64,000 nucleotides of DNA from Holdemania sp. Marseille-P2844 (GTDB lineage: Bacteria; Bacillota_I; Bacilli_A; Erysipelotrichales; Erysipelotrichaceae), in NCBI RefSeq assembly GCF_900120005.1, contig NZ_LT635450.1:308996-372995 (forward strand), read 5' to 3'. This document shows, in pieces, positions 1,297-33,541 of the stretch (within the stretch, counting starts at the first letter, position 1; every line of letters begins with the position of its first letter). The notes below the pieces were generated by a model. That model worked only from the letters and a program-made list of their open reading frames with translations. It had not been told where the DNA came from and did not search any database. A program made the position numbers and the translations under genes.

Positions 1297-2595
1297 TCAC
1301 GAATAACTTAGATAGTACTCTAAAGGATTGACTAAGCCTTGTCTTTCCTTTTTCTTTATGGCTAGTATTCTGGGATTTAAGATGTAGTTTACCACATTCA
1401 TTCCACATCTTCGATACCATCCTAGTCTTGAATTTGCTACTTTAAATATGTCTTCCTCTGTAAAGGAAAAATTTTGCAGTTTATTCAGTCTTTGCAGATT
1501 TATATAAATCCGTTTCGGTATCTTCCATTGCTTAATAATAACCACTCTTATTTTGTGTCTTAACCATTGTCCGAATTTATCCAAGAATTGTTTCATACTT
1601 CCGATACGGAAATAGTTTATCCATCCTCGTATAATTTGGTTTATTCTTTTAAATGTCTCTGCTAATGGTCTTGCTACTGCGTGTTTCCGTTTTAGTATTT
1701 CTTTGATTTTCATGCATAACTTCGCTTTCCTGTTATCGCTTGGCCTACACTTCCATCCCATACTTCCTTTCCAGAACGTAAAACCTAGAAAATTACTTTT
1801 CGTCGGTCTTACGATTTTGGTCTTTGTCGCACTCACTTTTAAGAATAGTTTTCTTTCTAGCCACCATGTGATTGATTTCATTACTCTTTCTGCTGCCATT
1901 TCGCTCTTTACGAAGATGTTACCATCATCAGCGTACCTCACAAAGCGCAGCCCTCTCTCTTCAAGTTCTTTATCAAGCTTATCTAAATATATATTTGATA
2001 GTACTGGACTGAGTGGTCCTCCTTGTGGTACTCCTGCTTCATTTGGACTTACTAGTCCATCTTCCATAACTCCTGCTTTTAAGAACGAACGTATCAGATG
2101 CAGTATTTCTCTTTCATTCACATGTTCTCTAAGTATTGAGATTAACTTGTCATGATGTACTGTATCGAAATATTTTTCTATATCTATGTCAATAACCCAT
2201 TCGTATCCTTCGTTTAGATATTCTAATACTTGTTCCATCGCATTATGTGCACTTCTATTGGGGCGAAACCCATAACTGTTTTCACTGAAATGTGGTTCAT
2301 ATATTTCGCTCAGTATCTGCGCTAATGCTTGTTGTATTACTCTATCTGTTACTGTCGGTATACCTAGCGGTCTTTGCTTTCCATCTGCTTTTGGTATATA
2401 GACTCTCCTTACTGGCTTTGGTTTATATTTCATATTCATGATTGCGGTTATAATTTCCTCTCCATGTATTTCAAAATATTTGTCAATTTCTTCCACCATC
2501 ATGTTATCAACACCCGGTGCGCCTTTGTTACTCTTGACTTTCTTTATCGCCAGTTCCATATTTCTTTTACTTAGCATCTTTTCTATCAATCTCAT
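1297..2595 (-). CDS. ltrA: Group IIC intron-encoded reverse transcriptase/maturase
   Basis: A 432-residue protein that splices its own intron RNA and reverse-transcribes it at the target. Reverse transcriptase blocks run from about residue 60 to 300, with the RT2-RT4 motifs QGGPLSP at 191 and YADD at 221-224. A group II maturase (X) domain follows around 340-420. There is no C-terminal HNH endonuclease, as expected for class C. The length is normal for the class, the frame is intact and GAGGAGGAACAGCGA precedes the ATG, so the intron may still be active. Confidence 0.95.
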   Translation of the reverse strand: MRLIEKMLSKRNMELAIKKVKSNKGAPGVDNMMVEEIDKYFEIHGEEIITAIMNMKYKPKPVRRVYIPKADGKQRPLGIPTVTDRVIQQALAQILSEIYEPHFSENSYGFRPNRSAHNAMEQVLEYLNEGYEWVIDIDIEKYFDTVHHDKLISILREHVNEREILHLIRSFLKAGVMEDGLVSPNEAGVPQGGPLSPVLSNIYLDKLDKELEERGLRFVRYADDGNIFVKSEMAAERVMKSITWWLERKLFLKVSATKTKIVRPTKSNFLGFTFWKGSMGWKCRPSDNRKAKLCMKIKEILKRKHAVARPLAETFKRINQIIRGWINYFRIGSMKQFLDKFGQWLRHKIRVVIIKQWKIPKRIYINLQRLNKLQNFSFTEEDIFKVANSRLGWYRRCGMNVVNYILNPRILAIKKKERQGLVNPLEYYLSYS

Positions 2596-3134
2596 TCGCT
2601 GTTCCTCCTCTACTCGTAGATTTATCCAAGACCATCCCCACTACTTTCCTCATCAATGATTACGATTCATTGTTTCAGAGTATCCTCATTTTCGGATTGC
2701 TTGAACATTTTCTCATAGTGATTCACACTATACATACATTAAGTCCTTCGTTATCTAGGCTGGATAACTAATATGACCTCAGCTGACTTCTTGTGATAAA
2801 CCTTTTTCGACCGATGCTACCATCCCTGATTTTAAAGTTTATTGGACTTCATCGTTCACAAGACCTCCCGGGGTAAGACATACATCTCTTTCCTATCTTC
2901 ACAAGTTCCTGATTTACTGTCTTGGTTTTACGTTTACCTTTTGGACTTTGGTTTGTTTCGCAACCTTATCCACCATTTAGCCTCATCAGGTTTCTGTTCG
3001 TAACCTCGAAGATTTTGCTACACCACTTCCTTCACCCTTAACATCACTGCTAACGACTTGTGGTTCACTACACTTGGCGGTAAATACCCGTGGTTGGATT
3101 TTCACCAACTAGATGTATGCCATGCCCGGCACAC

Positions 3135-9712: not shown

Positions 9713-9838
9713 CCACAATGCGCGGGGAAAAAGGATCCTCTTCCGCCGCCGAACACGTCGTCATCGTTTCTTAAGAAACCTGTCATAGACCTTCACAAAG
9801 CGTCATGGGGAAGTAAAGAACTTAAGATCTTTTCCTTT

Positions 9839-9844
9839 TATACT
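9839..9844 (+). promoter_or_regulatory. Possible -10 box of the Van-like operon
   Basis: TATACT about 88 bases before the VanW-like start. The -35 region is not canonical, so an activator may be needed or the call may be wrong. No regulator gene is adjacent. Confidence 0.35.
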
Positions 9845-9931
9845 GAAAGTGACAAACAAGTCACCGGAGCGGCCATGGGAAAGTCATCTTCCGGTGGCAT
9901 AATAAGGGAAACTTCAAGGAGAGTGAATTGT

Positions 9932-10759
9932 ATGAGCCGACGTCGAGTTACGGAATTTCTGCCTTTTCTTCTGCCGCTGCGCAGAAAGCAGAAAATCTGG
10001 TGTTTTTATCAAAAAATGAAGCATGACGGGAATCGTTATGCGCGCAGGCAGGCCGAAGAACGGCTGCCGTATATCCAATATGAATGTACGCAGGGATTAA
10101 TCAATCCTGACAGCGGGTATGATATTCAATATCAATACAACAAGGCCCACAACCTGAAGGTGGTCTCCCGCCGCATGCAGCAGCTGATCATCGAACCGGG
10201 CGAGGTGTTCTCGTTCTGGCAGCTGGCACGGGGCGCCGATCACGATGATCCCTATCTGCCGGGGCTGGGGCTGCACGATGGTAAAATCGTACCGGTCCAT
10301 GGTGGCGGGCTGTGTTTTATGAGCGAACTGTTATATTGGATGGTGCTGCATACGCCGCTGACGGTGATCGAGAAGCATCCGCATCTGGTCATCTCGCTGC
10401 CGGCCAATCCAAATGCGGAAATGCCGGCGGGGATCGACGCGACGATTCAGGAGGGCTGGAGCGATCTGAAATTCCGCAACGATACGGATCAGCCGTTTCA
10501 GCTGATTCTGGACTTTGACGAGGATTCCGTTCACGCGCAGTTCCGATGCGCACAGCCGCCGCGCTGCCGCTACGAGGTGACTGGTTCCGCGCTGACTTAT
10601 TCGCGAAAAAAAGGACAGATCTTCCGCACACAGGATATTGCGCGCACGATCTACGACGCGCACAGCGGTGAACTTGTGCGCAAGGAAGCCTGTTACACCA
10701 GCCGCAGCCGGATCGATTATCCGCTGCCGCCGGAAACTGAAATTATCGAGGAGGACTAA
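9932..10759 (+). CDS. VanW-family protein
   Basis: A 275-residue protein with a VanW domain across about residues 60-240; key parts are the EPGEVFSFWQLA and VHGGGLCFMSELLYWM segments. VanW occurs in vanB and vanG glycopeptide-resistance operons and in many gut Firmicutes, but its biochemical role is not established. No clear signal peptide is seen; the N-terminus is basic (MSRRRVTEFLPFLLPLRRK). The start at 9932 is favoured by AAGGAGAGTGAATTGT; the longer frame from 9875 has no ribosome site. It is the first gene of a tight operon; the ligase start lies 3 bases after its stop. Confidence 0.88.
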   Translation: MSRRRVTEFLPFLLPLRRKQKIWCFYQKMKHDGNRYARRQAEERLPYIQYECTQGLINPDSGYDIQYQYNKAHNLKVVSRRMQQLIIEPGEVFSFWQLARGADHDDPYLPGLGLHDGKIVPVHGGGLCFMSELLYWMVLHTPLTVIEKHPHLVISLPANPNAEMPAGIDATIQEGWSDLKFRNDTDQPFQLILDFDEDSVHAQFRCAQPPRCRYEVTGSALTYSRKKGQIFRTQDIARTIYDAHSGELVRKEACYTSRSRIDYPLPPETEIIEED

Positions 10760-10762
10760 ATC

Positions 10763-11815
10763 ATGAACGAAAAATTGAACGTTGCCGTCCTGTTTGGCGG
10801 CTGCAGCGATGAATACCATGTTTCTTTGCATTCCGCGGCGGGCGTGCTGCGGGCACTGGATCCGCAGCGGTACACAGTTGTAAAAATCGGCATTGATCCT
10901 CAGGGCGACTGGTTTCTCACAAATGCAAGCGCGGCGGAAATCGAAGCAGATCAGTGGCATACAGCGTCGGATCTGCGTCTGCGACTGACCTTGGCTCGCA
11001 GCAACTTTGAATTAAAAAGTGAAAACGGTGAAACTGTAGCCGTCGACGTCTTCTTTCCGGTCCTGCATGGCCGCAATGGCGAGGATGGAACGCTTCAGGG
11101 CATGCTGGAATTGTTCCACATTCCTTTTGTCGGCTGCGGCATGGATGCTTCGCTGCTGGGCATGGACAAGGCGCTCAGCCATCAGCTGGCGCGGCAGAAC
11201 GGGATCGAAGTCAGTCCGTTCATCGTGTTCGCTTATTCTGAGATCGATCAAAAGCGAGAATCGCTGAAACGGCTGCATCTGCCCTGCTTCGTCAAACCGG
11301 CCCGCGGCGGTTCCTCGATCGGCATCACCAAGATCAACGCTTGGGAAGAACTCGACGCCGCCTGCGCGGCAGCGGCCGAACATGACAGCCGGATTTTAAT
11401 TGAAGAAGCCGTCGAGGGTGAGGAAATTGGCTGTTCCCTCCTTCAAACCTGCGACAGCCTCGTGACAGGTGCGGTCGACCGGATTCATTTAAACAGCGAT
11501 TTCTTCGATTATGAAGAAAAATATGTCGATACCCACGCGCAGGTGGAATGTCCGGCGCAGCTGCCGGATTTCATCAGCGAACAGATGCGCTGTCTGGCAC
11601 GGAAGTTGTGGGAAATCCACCATTGTCAGGGACTGGTGCGTGTGGATTGTTTCCTGACCCCGGACCAGCGAATCGTGTTTAATGAGATCAACACGTTGCC
11701 GGGCATGACCGCGACCAGCCGCTATCCGCGCATGATGGGACAGGCGGGTATTCCCTTTGAAACGATTCTGGACACGTTAATTGAAGACGCTTTGCGGCGG
11801 GGGAGGAACGCATGA
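10763..11815 (+). CDS. vanG: D-alanine--D-serine (VanG/VanC-type) ligase
   Basis: A 350-residue ATP-grasp ligase that would join D-Ala to D-Ser (or D-Ala) for the end of the peptidoglycan stem peptide. The N-terminal FGGCSDEYHVSL matches the D-Ala binding loop, and the metal-binding end NEINTLPGMT is at about 307-316. The omega-loop motif near 247-254 reads FFDYEEKY, close to the FDYxEKY of VanG/VanC-type D-Ala-D-Ser ligases and unlike VanA/VanB lactate ligases. The overall sequence recalls VanG (PVLHGRNGEDGTLQG). D-Ala-D-Ala activity cannot be excluded. The stop overlaps the start of the fusion gene by ATGA. Confidence 0.85.
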   Translation: MNEKLNVAVLFGGCSDEYHVSLHSAAGVLRALDPQRYTVVKIGIDPQGDWFLTNASAAEIEADQWHTASDLRLRLTLARSNFELKSENGETVAVDVFFPVLHGRNGEDGTLQGMLELFHIPFVGCGMDASLLGMDKALSHQLARQNGIEVSPFIVFAYSEIDQKRESLKRLHLPCFVKPARGGSSIGITKINAWEELDAACAAAAEHDSRILIEEAVEGEEIGCSLLQTCDSLVTGAVDRIHLNSDFFDYEEKYVDTHAQVECPAQLPDFISEQMRCLARKLWEIHHCQGLVRVDCFLTPDQRIVFNEINTLPGMTATSRYPRMMGQAGIPFETILDTLIEDALRRGRNA

Positions 11816-13635
11816 ACTGCGTACGGCTTGTCAACCGGGAACATCGCCTGGAAGCGGATGAATCTTACTGGACCCGCGAGCTGGTCTGGATTGATGAAAA
11901 CACTCAGCTGCAGCCGGTCTGCGCCCGCGCTTTAAACGCCTGGATTACCCATTGCGGCGGGGAAAACGAAGTGACGTTTGTCAGCGGCTGGCGCAGTTAT
12001 GATCAGCAGCGAACCCTCATGAGCGAAACGGAAAGTGAACGGGGATGGGATTACGCGCATCAGTTCGTCGCCGAGGTGCGGGCCAGCGAGCATCATACCG
12101 GGCTGGCCATCGACCTGGGCATCGCCGGCAAGGATCAGGATCTGATCTGCCCGGATTTCTCCGGTCCTCTGGCGGATCGGATGCGGGAATGCGCCGATCA
12201 GTTCGGCTTTATTTTCCGTTACCCCAAACACAAAACAGAAATTACCGGAATCAGCGAAGAACCCTGGCATTACCGTTATGTCGGACTGCCGCATGCGCAA
12301 ATCATCGCTGATCACGACTGGGTGCTGGAGGAATACGCCGCTTTTCTTAAAGCTTATACCAAGGCCAACCCCTATCGCTATGATGACGGACAACGCCGCT
12401 GGCAGCTGTGGACGCAGCCGCTGGCCGAAACGCTTCCGCCCGCTGAAAACACGTCGGTCGAAAGCTCACAGCTGGATGAAACGACTTGCTTATTCGTCGA
12501 AGCGCTGGATCCTGAACCGATTCCTGAAGGTCGGGATAGGGCCTGGGTCGAGCTGGACGGGATCGCGCTGCGGCACAATTTGACGATCTTGAGAAAAGCC
12601 ATGGCGCCGCAGCAGGAGCTGATGGCGGTCTTAAAGGCCAACGCTTATGGACATGGTCTGGAGCCGACCGCGGATTTCCTGAGCCGGCAGGGCGTTCGGC
12701 ATTTCGCCGTCGCCACCGTCGAGGAAGCCAAGGTGATCCGGGCGATCAATCCGACCGCGGAGATTCTGATCTTAGGCTATGTTCCACCGCAGCGGGCAGC
12801 AGAACTGTCGCGTCTGCATCTCTCCTTAACCTTAACCAGTTACGATCAGGCCTGTCAGCTGGATCAGACCGGCTGTCCGATCAGCGCACATCTGCCGGTG
12901 GACACCGGGATGCACCGTCTGGGTGAAACCGCGGAGGATCTGGACGCCATCGCGCGGTACTATGCGCTGCCTCATCTTCAGATTACCGGCCTTTATTCCC
13001 ATCTTTATGAAGCGGATAACCTGAGCGCTGAAGCCATTGCGCATACCCGGGCGCAGATCGAACGGTTCTTTCACGTCGTGGACGGTCTGAAACAGCGGGG
13101 AATCGATCCGGGCCGCGTGCATCTGCAGGGAAGTTATGGATTTCTGAATTATCCGGAGCTGCGGTGTGATCTTGTCCGCTGCGGAATCGCGCTGTTCGGC
13201 TGCATCGCCCCGTTCCGTTCCCGGATGGCGCTGGATTGGCGGCCAGTTGCTTCCGTCCGCACCCGGATTGCGGCGTTGCGGCCGTTGAAAAAAGGGGAGG
13301 GCGCAGGGTACAATCATGCCTGGGCCGCTCCTTGCGATACGACCGTCGCGATTCTTTCGATCGGTTATTCCGATGGTCTGCTTCGCAGTTCCTCCTTCCA
13401 GGGGGCAGAAGTTCTGATTCATGGACAACGCCGTCCGATCGTCGGCGCGATGTGCATGGATCAATGTCTTGTGGATCTCAGCTCTTTGCCCGCGGCTGTC
13501 GGGGATGAAGTCATCGTGATCGGCAAACAGGGAACCGGCCAAATCTCCGCACTGGAAGTCGCAGAAAAAACTGGAACGATTGTTCCGGAAACGTTAAGCA
13601 TGCTTCGTGGACGAATGCCGCGCATTCTGGTTTAA
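11812..13635 (+). CDS. VanXY-type D,D-peptidase fused to a VanT-type amino-acid racemase
   Basis: One 607-residue frame holds two enzymes that are normally separate. Residues 1-200 form a VanX/VanY-like zinc D,D-dipeptidase/carboxypeptidase: GWRSYDQQ, then SEHHTGLAID with ligands His94 and Asp101, then EPWH with Glu150 and His153. A charged linker covers about 205-243. Residues 244-607 form a PLP-dependent alanine/serine racemase: the PLP lysine is K275 in VLKANAYGHG, the catalytic tyrosine is Y500 in GEGAGYNHAW, and MCMDQ follows. VanT proteins normally carry an N-terminal membrane domain; here the peptidase takes its place and no membrane segment is present, so the protein should be cytosolic. 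The C-terminal YRVPR segment of alanine racemases reads LRGRMPRI. The ATGA overlap with the ligase implies coupled translation. Confidence 0.9.
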   Translation: MNCVRLVNREHRLEADESYWTRELVWIDENTQLQPVCARALNAWITHCGGENEVTFVSGWRSYDQQRTLMSETESERGWDYAHQFVAEVRASEHHTGLAIDLGIAGKDQDLICPDFSGPLADRMRECADQFGFIFRYPKHKTEITGISEEPWHYRYVGLPHAQIIADHDWVLEEYAAFLKAYTKANPYRYDDGQRRWQLWTQPLAETLPPAENTSVESSQLDETTCLFVEALDPEPIPEGRDRAWVELDGIALRHNLTILRKAMAPQQELMAVLKANAYGHGLEPTADFLSRQGVRHFAVATVEEAKVIRAINPTAEILILGYVPPQRAAELSRLHLSLTLTSYDQACQLDQTGCPISAHLPVDTGMHRLGETAEDLDAIARYYALPHLQITGLYSHLYEADNLSAEAIAHTRAQIERFFHVVDGLKQRGIDPGRVHLQGSYGFLNYPELRCDLVRCGIALFGCIAPFRSRMALDWRPVASVRTRIAALRPLKKGEGAGYNHAWAAPCDTTVAILSIGYSDGLLRSSSFQGAEVLIHGQRRPIVGAMCMDQCLVDLSSLPAAVGDEVIVIGKQGTGQISALEVAEKTGTIVPETLSMLRGRMPRILV

Positions 13636-13710
13636 TCTGGTCTAATAAACTTGGATTTTCATCCAGTTCCAACTGAAGTATATCCCCTGTCAGGGGCAAA
13701 GATAAAAAGG

Positions 13711-13758
13711 GCAGGCAAGATAACGTTTTATATAACGTTTTATCTTGCCTGCTTCTTT
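13711..13758 (+). terminator. Terminator of the Van-like operon
   Basis: GCAGGCAAGATAA (13711-13723) pairs with TTATCTTGCCTGC (13740-13752), followed by TTCTTTG. It may also serve the lipoprotein gene coming from the other side. Confidence 0.8.
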
Positions 13759-13830
13759 GTATGGAAATTCTATTCCTTCCCGAACCGAGTAAGAACTCAT
13801 AAAAAGATCATCGCCTTAATAAACTATAAT

Positions 13831-32894: not shown

Positions 32895-33541
32895 ATAGTG
32901 AAACCTCCTATTGAATTTTAGGCAGTATGTACCGCCTATGTAGGAGGTCAGACGACGAAACAATATTGGTTTGAAATGTTATTTACACACATAGCCCGAT
33001 TAGCTGTACGCCGCCTGACCTTATGATACAGAGATTTCATTTGTCCTCGACACCCCAAATCTCCATTGGGAAGTCATCAAGCGGCTGACAGCGTATCAGC
33101 TCCACGGGAATTTCACCCTCACATGGTTCTCATGCAACCGCCCCCATTGCCTGCGACGGCTTCACGCCGGAACACGCTTATCACGCTCGGACTGTGGCTG
33201 GACGGGAGTCTCATTATCCCTATTGCCGGTCATGGCCATACCGGGAGCCGCCCGGTACTGATAACACACTGTTTCTCGCTCCATGACGGAAAGCTAAAAG
33301 CACACAGACCATAATCTACACAGTGAAATCTTGTTGCTTTATCCTCCCGGCACATCGTGGCGCAGCAGCTAAAGCGGCTTATGCTCATCGCAATGGCAAT
33401 AGGATCGTACTTGATGAATGGGTATTCGGTTGTCAAGGAACACCCCATTCGCCGTACAAACGGAAAACGGGCAAGAAGCTATCCGTGGCCTCTCACCCGT
33501 TTCCTCACTCAAAGGGCAAAAGTTAAGCCCTTTTCAGAAAA
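32895..33541. other. Region without a supported gene between mazF-like and sigma-like genes
   Basis: About 650 bases of normal GC content. Several short frames exist on both strands, but none has a convincing ribosome site or recognisable product. At the right end AAGGGC-TTAACTTTT-GCCCTT (33513-33534) can form a terminator-like hairpin for the sigma-like gene. The rest may encode an RNA or a small protein that I cannot identify. Confidence 0.45.

Follow-up and report, generated by a model that had tools for sequence, protein, structure and literature searches.

In Holdemania, a genus of the human gut, the D,D-peptidase VanXY and the racemase VanT are joined in one uninterrupted gene, which was present in every genome of the genus that was sampled. 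VanXY and VanT normally correspond to separate vancomycin-resistance genes, one product removing the target of the drug and the other making the replacement building block. The joined gene (11812-13635 on the forward strand, stop codon included; 607 amino acids) lies in a 64,000-nucleotide stretch, designated here as the window, of the 3.68 Mb genome of Holdemania sp. Marseille-P2844. The original prediction had described it as a natural VanXY-VanT fusion, a description supported by domain scans, structural models, trees, genus-wide conservation and selection on both halves. The single frame indeed carries the peptidase residues (His94, Asp101, Glu150 and His153) and the racemase residues (Lys275 and Tyr500) that had been claimed, all of which were invariant in an alignment of the four Holdemania fusions. 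A Pfam scan recognised a VanY domain (residues 33-158) and two alanine-racemase domains (252-464 and 479-605), all above cut-off, and the structural model of the whole protein was confident (mean pLDDT 89.4, pTM 0.89). Annotation based on domains or profiles would label such a gene as a VanY peptidase or simply as an alanine racemase. It is probable that the gene belongs to a VanG-type D-Ala-D-Ser operon in which fusion of vanXY and vanT has generated a soluble double enzyme, leading to D-Ser-ended precursors.

The surrounding genes follow the VanG-type order vanW-ligase-vanXY-vanT, all on the forward strand. The gene of the accessory protein VanW (9932-10759) was identified with NCBIfam NF033128 (396.6 bits, cut-off 365), its start being set at residue 20 of the frame in agreement with the starts of homologues. 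It is preceded by a putative leader or promoter region (9760-9931, forward strand) with repeated GTCAT/GTGACA words, conserved in an alignment of the four Holdemania intergenic regions and including a 17-base block, GAAGTAAAGAACTTAAG (9810-9826, forward strand), invariant in the four species. The ligase gene (10763-11815) had VanG as its best profile (386.6 bits, below the cut-off of 495). At the positions of VanG Asp243, Phe252 and Arg324, which we take to be typical of D-Ala:D-Ser ligases, the residues D, F and R occur in all four Holdemania ligases, as in VanC, VanN and VanG; the Ddl of M. tuberculosis presents G, Y and M, and a second, ordinary Ddl encoded elsewhere in the Holdemania genome does not match either. 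This pattern supports a D-Ala-D-Ser pathway and the predicted D-Ser-type ligase beside the fusion, the placement of the ligase in its tree being less well resolved (support 0.11). The start of the fusion overlaps the ligase stop (ATGA) and is preceded by GGGGGAGG (11799-11806), a strong ribosome-binding site. A hairpin at 13710-13753 of the forward strand (-31.6 kcal/mol for 13695-13765, z -8.7 against shuffled sequences) closes the operon and is likely its terminator. The neighbours were the same in all four genomes, that is, an S9 peptidase gene in the opposite direction upstream, vanW, the ligase, the fusion and then a MATE-type gene.

Elsewhere, the window holds a group II intron (1297-3053), with a reverse transcriptase and Rfam matches to its domains, a minus-strand pemK RNA motif (33102-33217, Rfam RF02913) and a mobile-element-like region (36119-63913). 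The latter encodes a dockerin and InlB-repeat protein, a HerA/TraG-type ATPase, a CHAP protein and an 1838-residue helicase with an Eco57I-like methylase domain.

In E. faecalis, vanG, vanXYG and vanTG are the three genes strictly required for VanG resistance (PMC4405338), and therefore the expected job of the Holdemania protein would be both the supply of D-Ser and the removal of D-Ala-D-Ala by a single soluble protein. In the proposed pathway the fusion product would reside in the cytoplasm as a double enzyme and probably form dimers via its racemase half, which would convert L-Ser to D-Ser with PLP. The ligase encoded upstream would couple D-Ala to D-Ser, and the zinc peptidase half would destroy D-Ala-D-Ala and trim D-Ala off the normal precursors, leaving wall precursors with D-Ser at their end. 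Having both activities in the same place may be of benefit to the cell. The fusion would thus unite, in a single ready-made chain devoid of a membrane domain, two of the three enzymes on which VanG resistance depends.

Vancomycin resistance conferred by this operon is not claimed here. The operon contains no vanRS or vanURS genes, the flanks in all four genomes being the S9 peptidase and MATE-type genes. An unlinked pair composed of a VanR (377 bits, cut-off 350) and a VanS-like protein (360 bits, below the cut-off of 400) is encoded at about 292.8-294.6 kb of contig C12 of the same assembly (locus L107, 5822-7628), and this pair could regulate the fusion operon in trans. It adjoins an ffh-like gene, far from the operon. 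Conservation of the leader in four species suggests regulation. A VanR-box search with a consensus yielded no enrichment, the leader of vanW was found to share no motif with the VanRS locus, and no sigma-70-type match was detected ahead of vanW on the operon strand.

These features are relevant to the possibility that the operon is a quiet D-Ser cluster, poorly expressed or expressed only upon induction and providing no useful vancomycin resistance, which has a nearly even chance of being correct. It is favoured by the lack of vanRS next to the operon, by the unlinked position of the VanRS-like pair, by the result of the sigma-70 search and by H. massiliensis AP2, which carries the fusion (locus L035) and has been described as vancomycin-susceptible (PMC4062643). 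This description came without an MIC, however, and D-Ser types confer only low-level resistance (PMC11326576). Moreover, the strong purifying selection acting on both halves of the fusion and the conserved leader argue that the operon is in use. A quiet cluster would bear on what the operon is for and does not conflict with the proposed enzyme activities. A further reading, which we regard as unlikely, is that the fused enzyme serves normal Holdemania wall metabolism rather than drug resistance, as a soluble D-Ser machine whose two active sites operate as a unit without the acyltransferase part of VanT.

Returning to the D-Ala-D-Ser reading, the peptidase half (residues 1-232; 11812-12507, forward strand) appears as a complete VanXYG-like enzyme in which the small beta part at the C-terminus (residues 188-232) is also present. 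When residues 1-240 were modelled (mean pLDDT 91.4), the model matched VanXYG (4F78) over 228 residues (model residues 2-232) with a VIA Z of 31.5 and an rmsd of 1.7, and with Foldseek TM scores of 0.89/0.85, and the match to VanXYC reached only residues 1-186. The zinc site (SxHxxGxAxD and ExxH, with the catalytic Glu) is present between 12091 and 12270 of the forward strand, as deduced from alignment: His94 (12091-12093), Asp101 (12112-12114), Glu150 (12259-12261) and His153 (12268-12270), which were invariant among 17 aligned VanXY-type proteins. The fusion scored 183.4 bits with the VanXY model NCBIfam NF000380, below the cut-off of 250, as did unfused vanXY products encoded next to VanT-type racemases (for example, 192 at locus L063 and 219 at L096). 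By sequence, the C-terminal tail was unrecognisable (-2.5 to 2.7 bits, with shuffled sequences reaching 4.0). The idea that residues 190-235 constituted a new linker domain was dropped because, in the model, the fold of this tail matches the C-terminal part of VanXYG; the linker-like segment is thus assigned to that part by its modelled fold, and sequence alone would have missed it. Placement of the peptidase half in its tree was less well resolved (support 0.87).

The racemase half (residues 239-607; 12526-13632, forward strand) corresponds, in the model, to a complete VanTG-like racemase domain. Residues 239-607 of the full model superimposed on VanTG (4ECL) over 369 residues (VIA Z 46.9, rmsd 1.5). 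VanTG was the best racemase match both by structure, alanine racemases scoring lower (next Z 42.9), and by sequence among PDB entries. Besides the VanTG-like fold, this half presents the PLP lysine (Lys275, 12634-12636) and the catalytic tyrosine (Tyr500, 13309-13311), both located by alignment on the forward strand (12634-13311). No AT3 (acyltransferase) N-terminal membrane domain was detected by Pfam in the fusion protein. The predicted absence of this domain therefore stood, but not as a special trait, since many VanT proteins of the Erysipelotrichales are soluble or split and the domain is missing from many linked relatives.

The substrate of this half is less straightforward. Asn at the position of VanTG Asn696 is presumably a mark of VanT racemases, alanine racemases having Tyr (Tyr354) in agreement with the alignment column; all four fusions carry Pro there instead (Pro592, 13585-13587, forward strand), and Pro also at the position of Bst Lys129. 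In addition, the score with the alanine racemase model TIGR00492 was above its cut-off, while the VanT profiles scored below theirs, NCBIfam vanT-G-Cterm reaching 406.1 bits against a cut-off of 460 and being nevertheless the best of the racemase profiles of the protein. Accordingly, the racemase could be mainly an alanine or broad-specificity enzyme that feeds D-amino acids to the wall instead of D-Ser to a D-Ala-D-Ser pathway. This was judged rather improbable, as VanTG is the best match by structure and sequence, well above alanine racemases, and the tree groups this half with VanT-type racemases of ligase- or vanXY-linked clusters (support 0.92 for the immediate group). Furthermore, the genome has its own alanine racemase, of the Tyr type and separate in the tree. 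At the Asn696 position, relatives mostly have Asn, with Ile, Val, Leu or Asp in some, meaning that the site is not strictly Asn within the order, and the non-Asn, non-Tyr residues Ile, Val and Leu recur in ligase-linked relatives. Production of D-Ser by the fusion racemase is what we infer, with Pro in place of the Asn mark. Altogether, the evidence against the D-Ala-D-Ser reading comprises the missed VanXY and VanT cut-offs of NCBIfam, the two Pro substitutions, the lack of vanRS in the operon and the recorded susceptibility of AP2.

The two halves meet at a junction of about six residues (233-238; 12508-12525, forward strand), since the VanXYG match ends at residue 232 and the VanTG match begins at 239. 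It could be imagined that the frame yields two proteins through internal initiation, the fusion being only apparent, and an ATG, GTG or TTG does exist near residues 233-237 in three of the four Holdemania genomes. Yet the window gene has ATT at the putative internal start, no ribosome-binding site precedes this codon in any of the four, and the next downstream starts (residues 249-264) fall within the racemase fold. With neither a conserved internal start codon nor a ribosome-binding site at the junction in the four Holdemania genomes, this source of two proteins was rejected as highly improbable. A sequencing or assembly error merging two genes is practically inconceivable, and was refuted by the presence of the same in-frame fusion in four separate assemblies (58-89% identity). 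The original prediction had proposed reading the 12.4-12.6 kb junction in independent genomes and had named a hidden stop codon between residues 200 and 245 as refuting evidence; no such stop was found, the four assemblies reading through, and the lengths of the fusions (607, 607, 603 and 602 amino acids) differ by whole codons.

The four genomes with the in-frame fusion are the window genome, H. filiformis (DSM 12042, 89% identity to the window protein), H. massiliensis AP2 and an uncultured Holdemania genome, the three relatives showing 89, 77 and 58% identity. In the order (316 genomes), full-length matches were confined to these four Holdemania among the matches listed, and in a class-wide sample of 392 genomes no fusion was found outside Holdemania. 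The two samples add up to about 650 distinct genomes, the wider one being apparently composed of members of the same class only. A pattern scan of 84,980 species-level genomes, which detects close relatives only, also returned Holdemania only, and no VanXY-VanT fusion was found in the phage, plasmid and viral collections. Both halves are under purifying selection, with dN/dS values of 0.09-0.25 for the peptidase and 0.08-0.21 for the racemase, and the C-terminal part plus junction is looser (0.24-0.70), synonymous sites being near saturation in the wider pairs.

The layouts of unfused relatives could plausibly represent intermediate stages toward the fusion. A full VanT with the AT3 membrane domain follows vanXY at two loci (L096 and L097), the membrane part is shortened at another (L094), and vanXY is followed by a soluble racemase as a separate gene in genome G036 (L093). 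In one family of the order (f2), AT3 and racemase are separate neighbouring genes (L010, 489-1502), and many family members have a ligase and a soluble racemase with vanXY absent from the stretch read. In genome G292 (L063, 789-2595), vanXY and a soluble vanT-like racemase gene overlap by 8 bases in different frames, an arrangement that is likely the pre-fusion one and in which one small indel close to the overlap could merge the genes; in the vanC and vanN operons the vanXY/vanT overlap is 4 bases. The fusion would accordingly have arisen when, once VanT had lost its membrane domain, the overlapping frames of vanXY and the soluble vanT became joined. A separate observation is a Paenibacillus amylolyticus plasmid (L100, 3986-7018) with racemase, vanXY and VanG-like ligase genes in the reverse order, the racemase having Gln at the Asn696 position.

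According to a 2025 paper (PMC12423673), VanT resistance mutations fall in the AT3 part, whose role has so far gone unconsidered. The series formed by full, shortened, split and absent AT3, and by its absence combined with fusion, offers a natural experiment on that role.

No earlier description of a VanXY-VanT fusion was found in the papers covered, a partial sample of the literature. The closest known system is the vanG operon of E. faecalis (VanW, VanG, VanXYG and VanTG), which has the same gene order and a D-Ser-type ligase, and whose VanXYG and VanTG structures are fitted end to end by the two halves. It differs in that Holdemania has vanXY and vanT as one gene, no AT3, an operon devoid of vanURS and vanY, and Pro instead of Asn696. 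The vanC and vanN operons (E. gallinarum and E. faecium) share the ligase-vanXY-vanT order; however, VanXYC and VanXYN lack the C-terminal part kept by the fusion, their VanT is membrane-bound and vanRS follows the operon. The soluble or split VanT proteins of the Erysipelotrichales, such as those of G292 and G036, likewise include a racemase that has no membrane domain and immediately follows vanXY or the ligase, but the genes are separate, the AT3 part being a gene of its own in family f2. A split VanT is also found in vanL. The bifunctional MurF-alanine racemase (NF008897) is another racemase fused to a wall enzyme, although with another partner and unconnected with D-Ser, and the Holdemania fusion scored 223.8, far below the cut-off of 804. 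In summary, the parts and the pathway are known, and the novelty lies in the fusion of the two genes, in its occurrence across all genomes sampled from the genus and in the loss of AT3.
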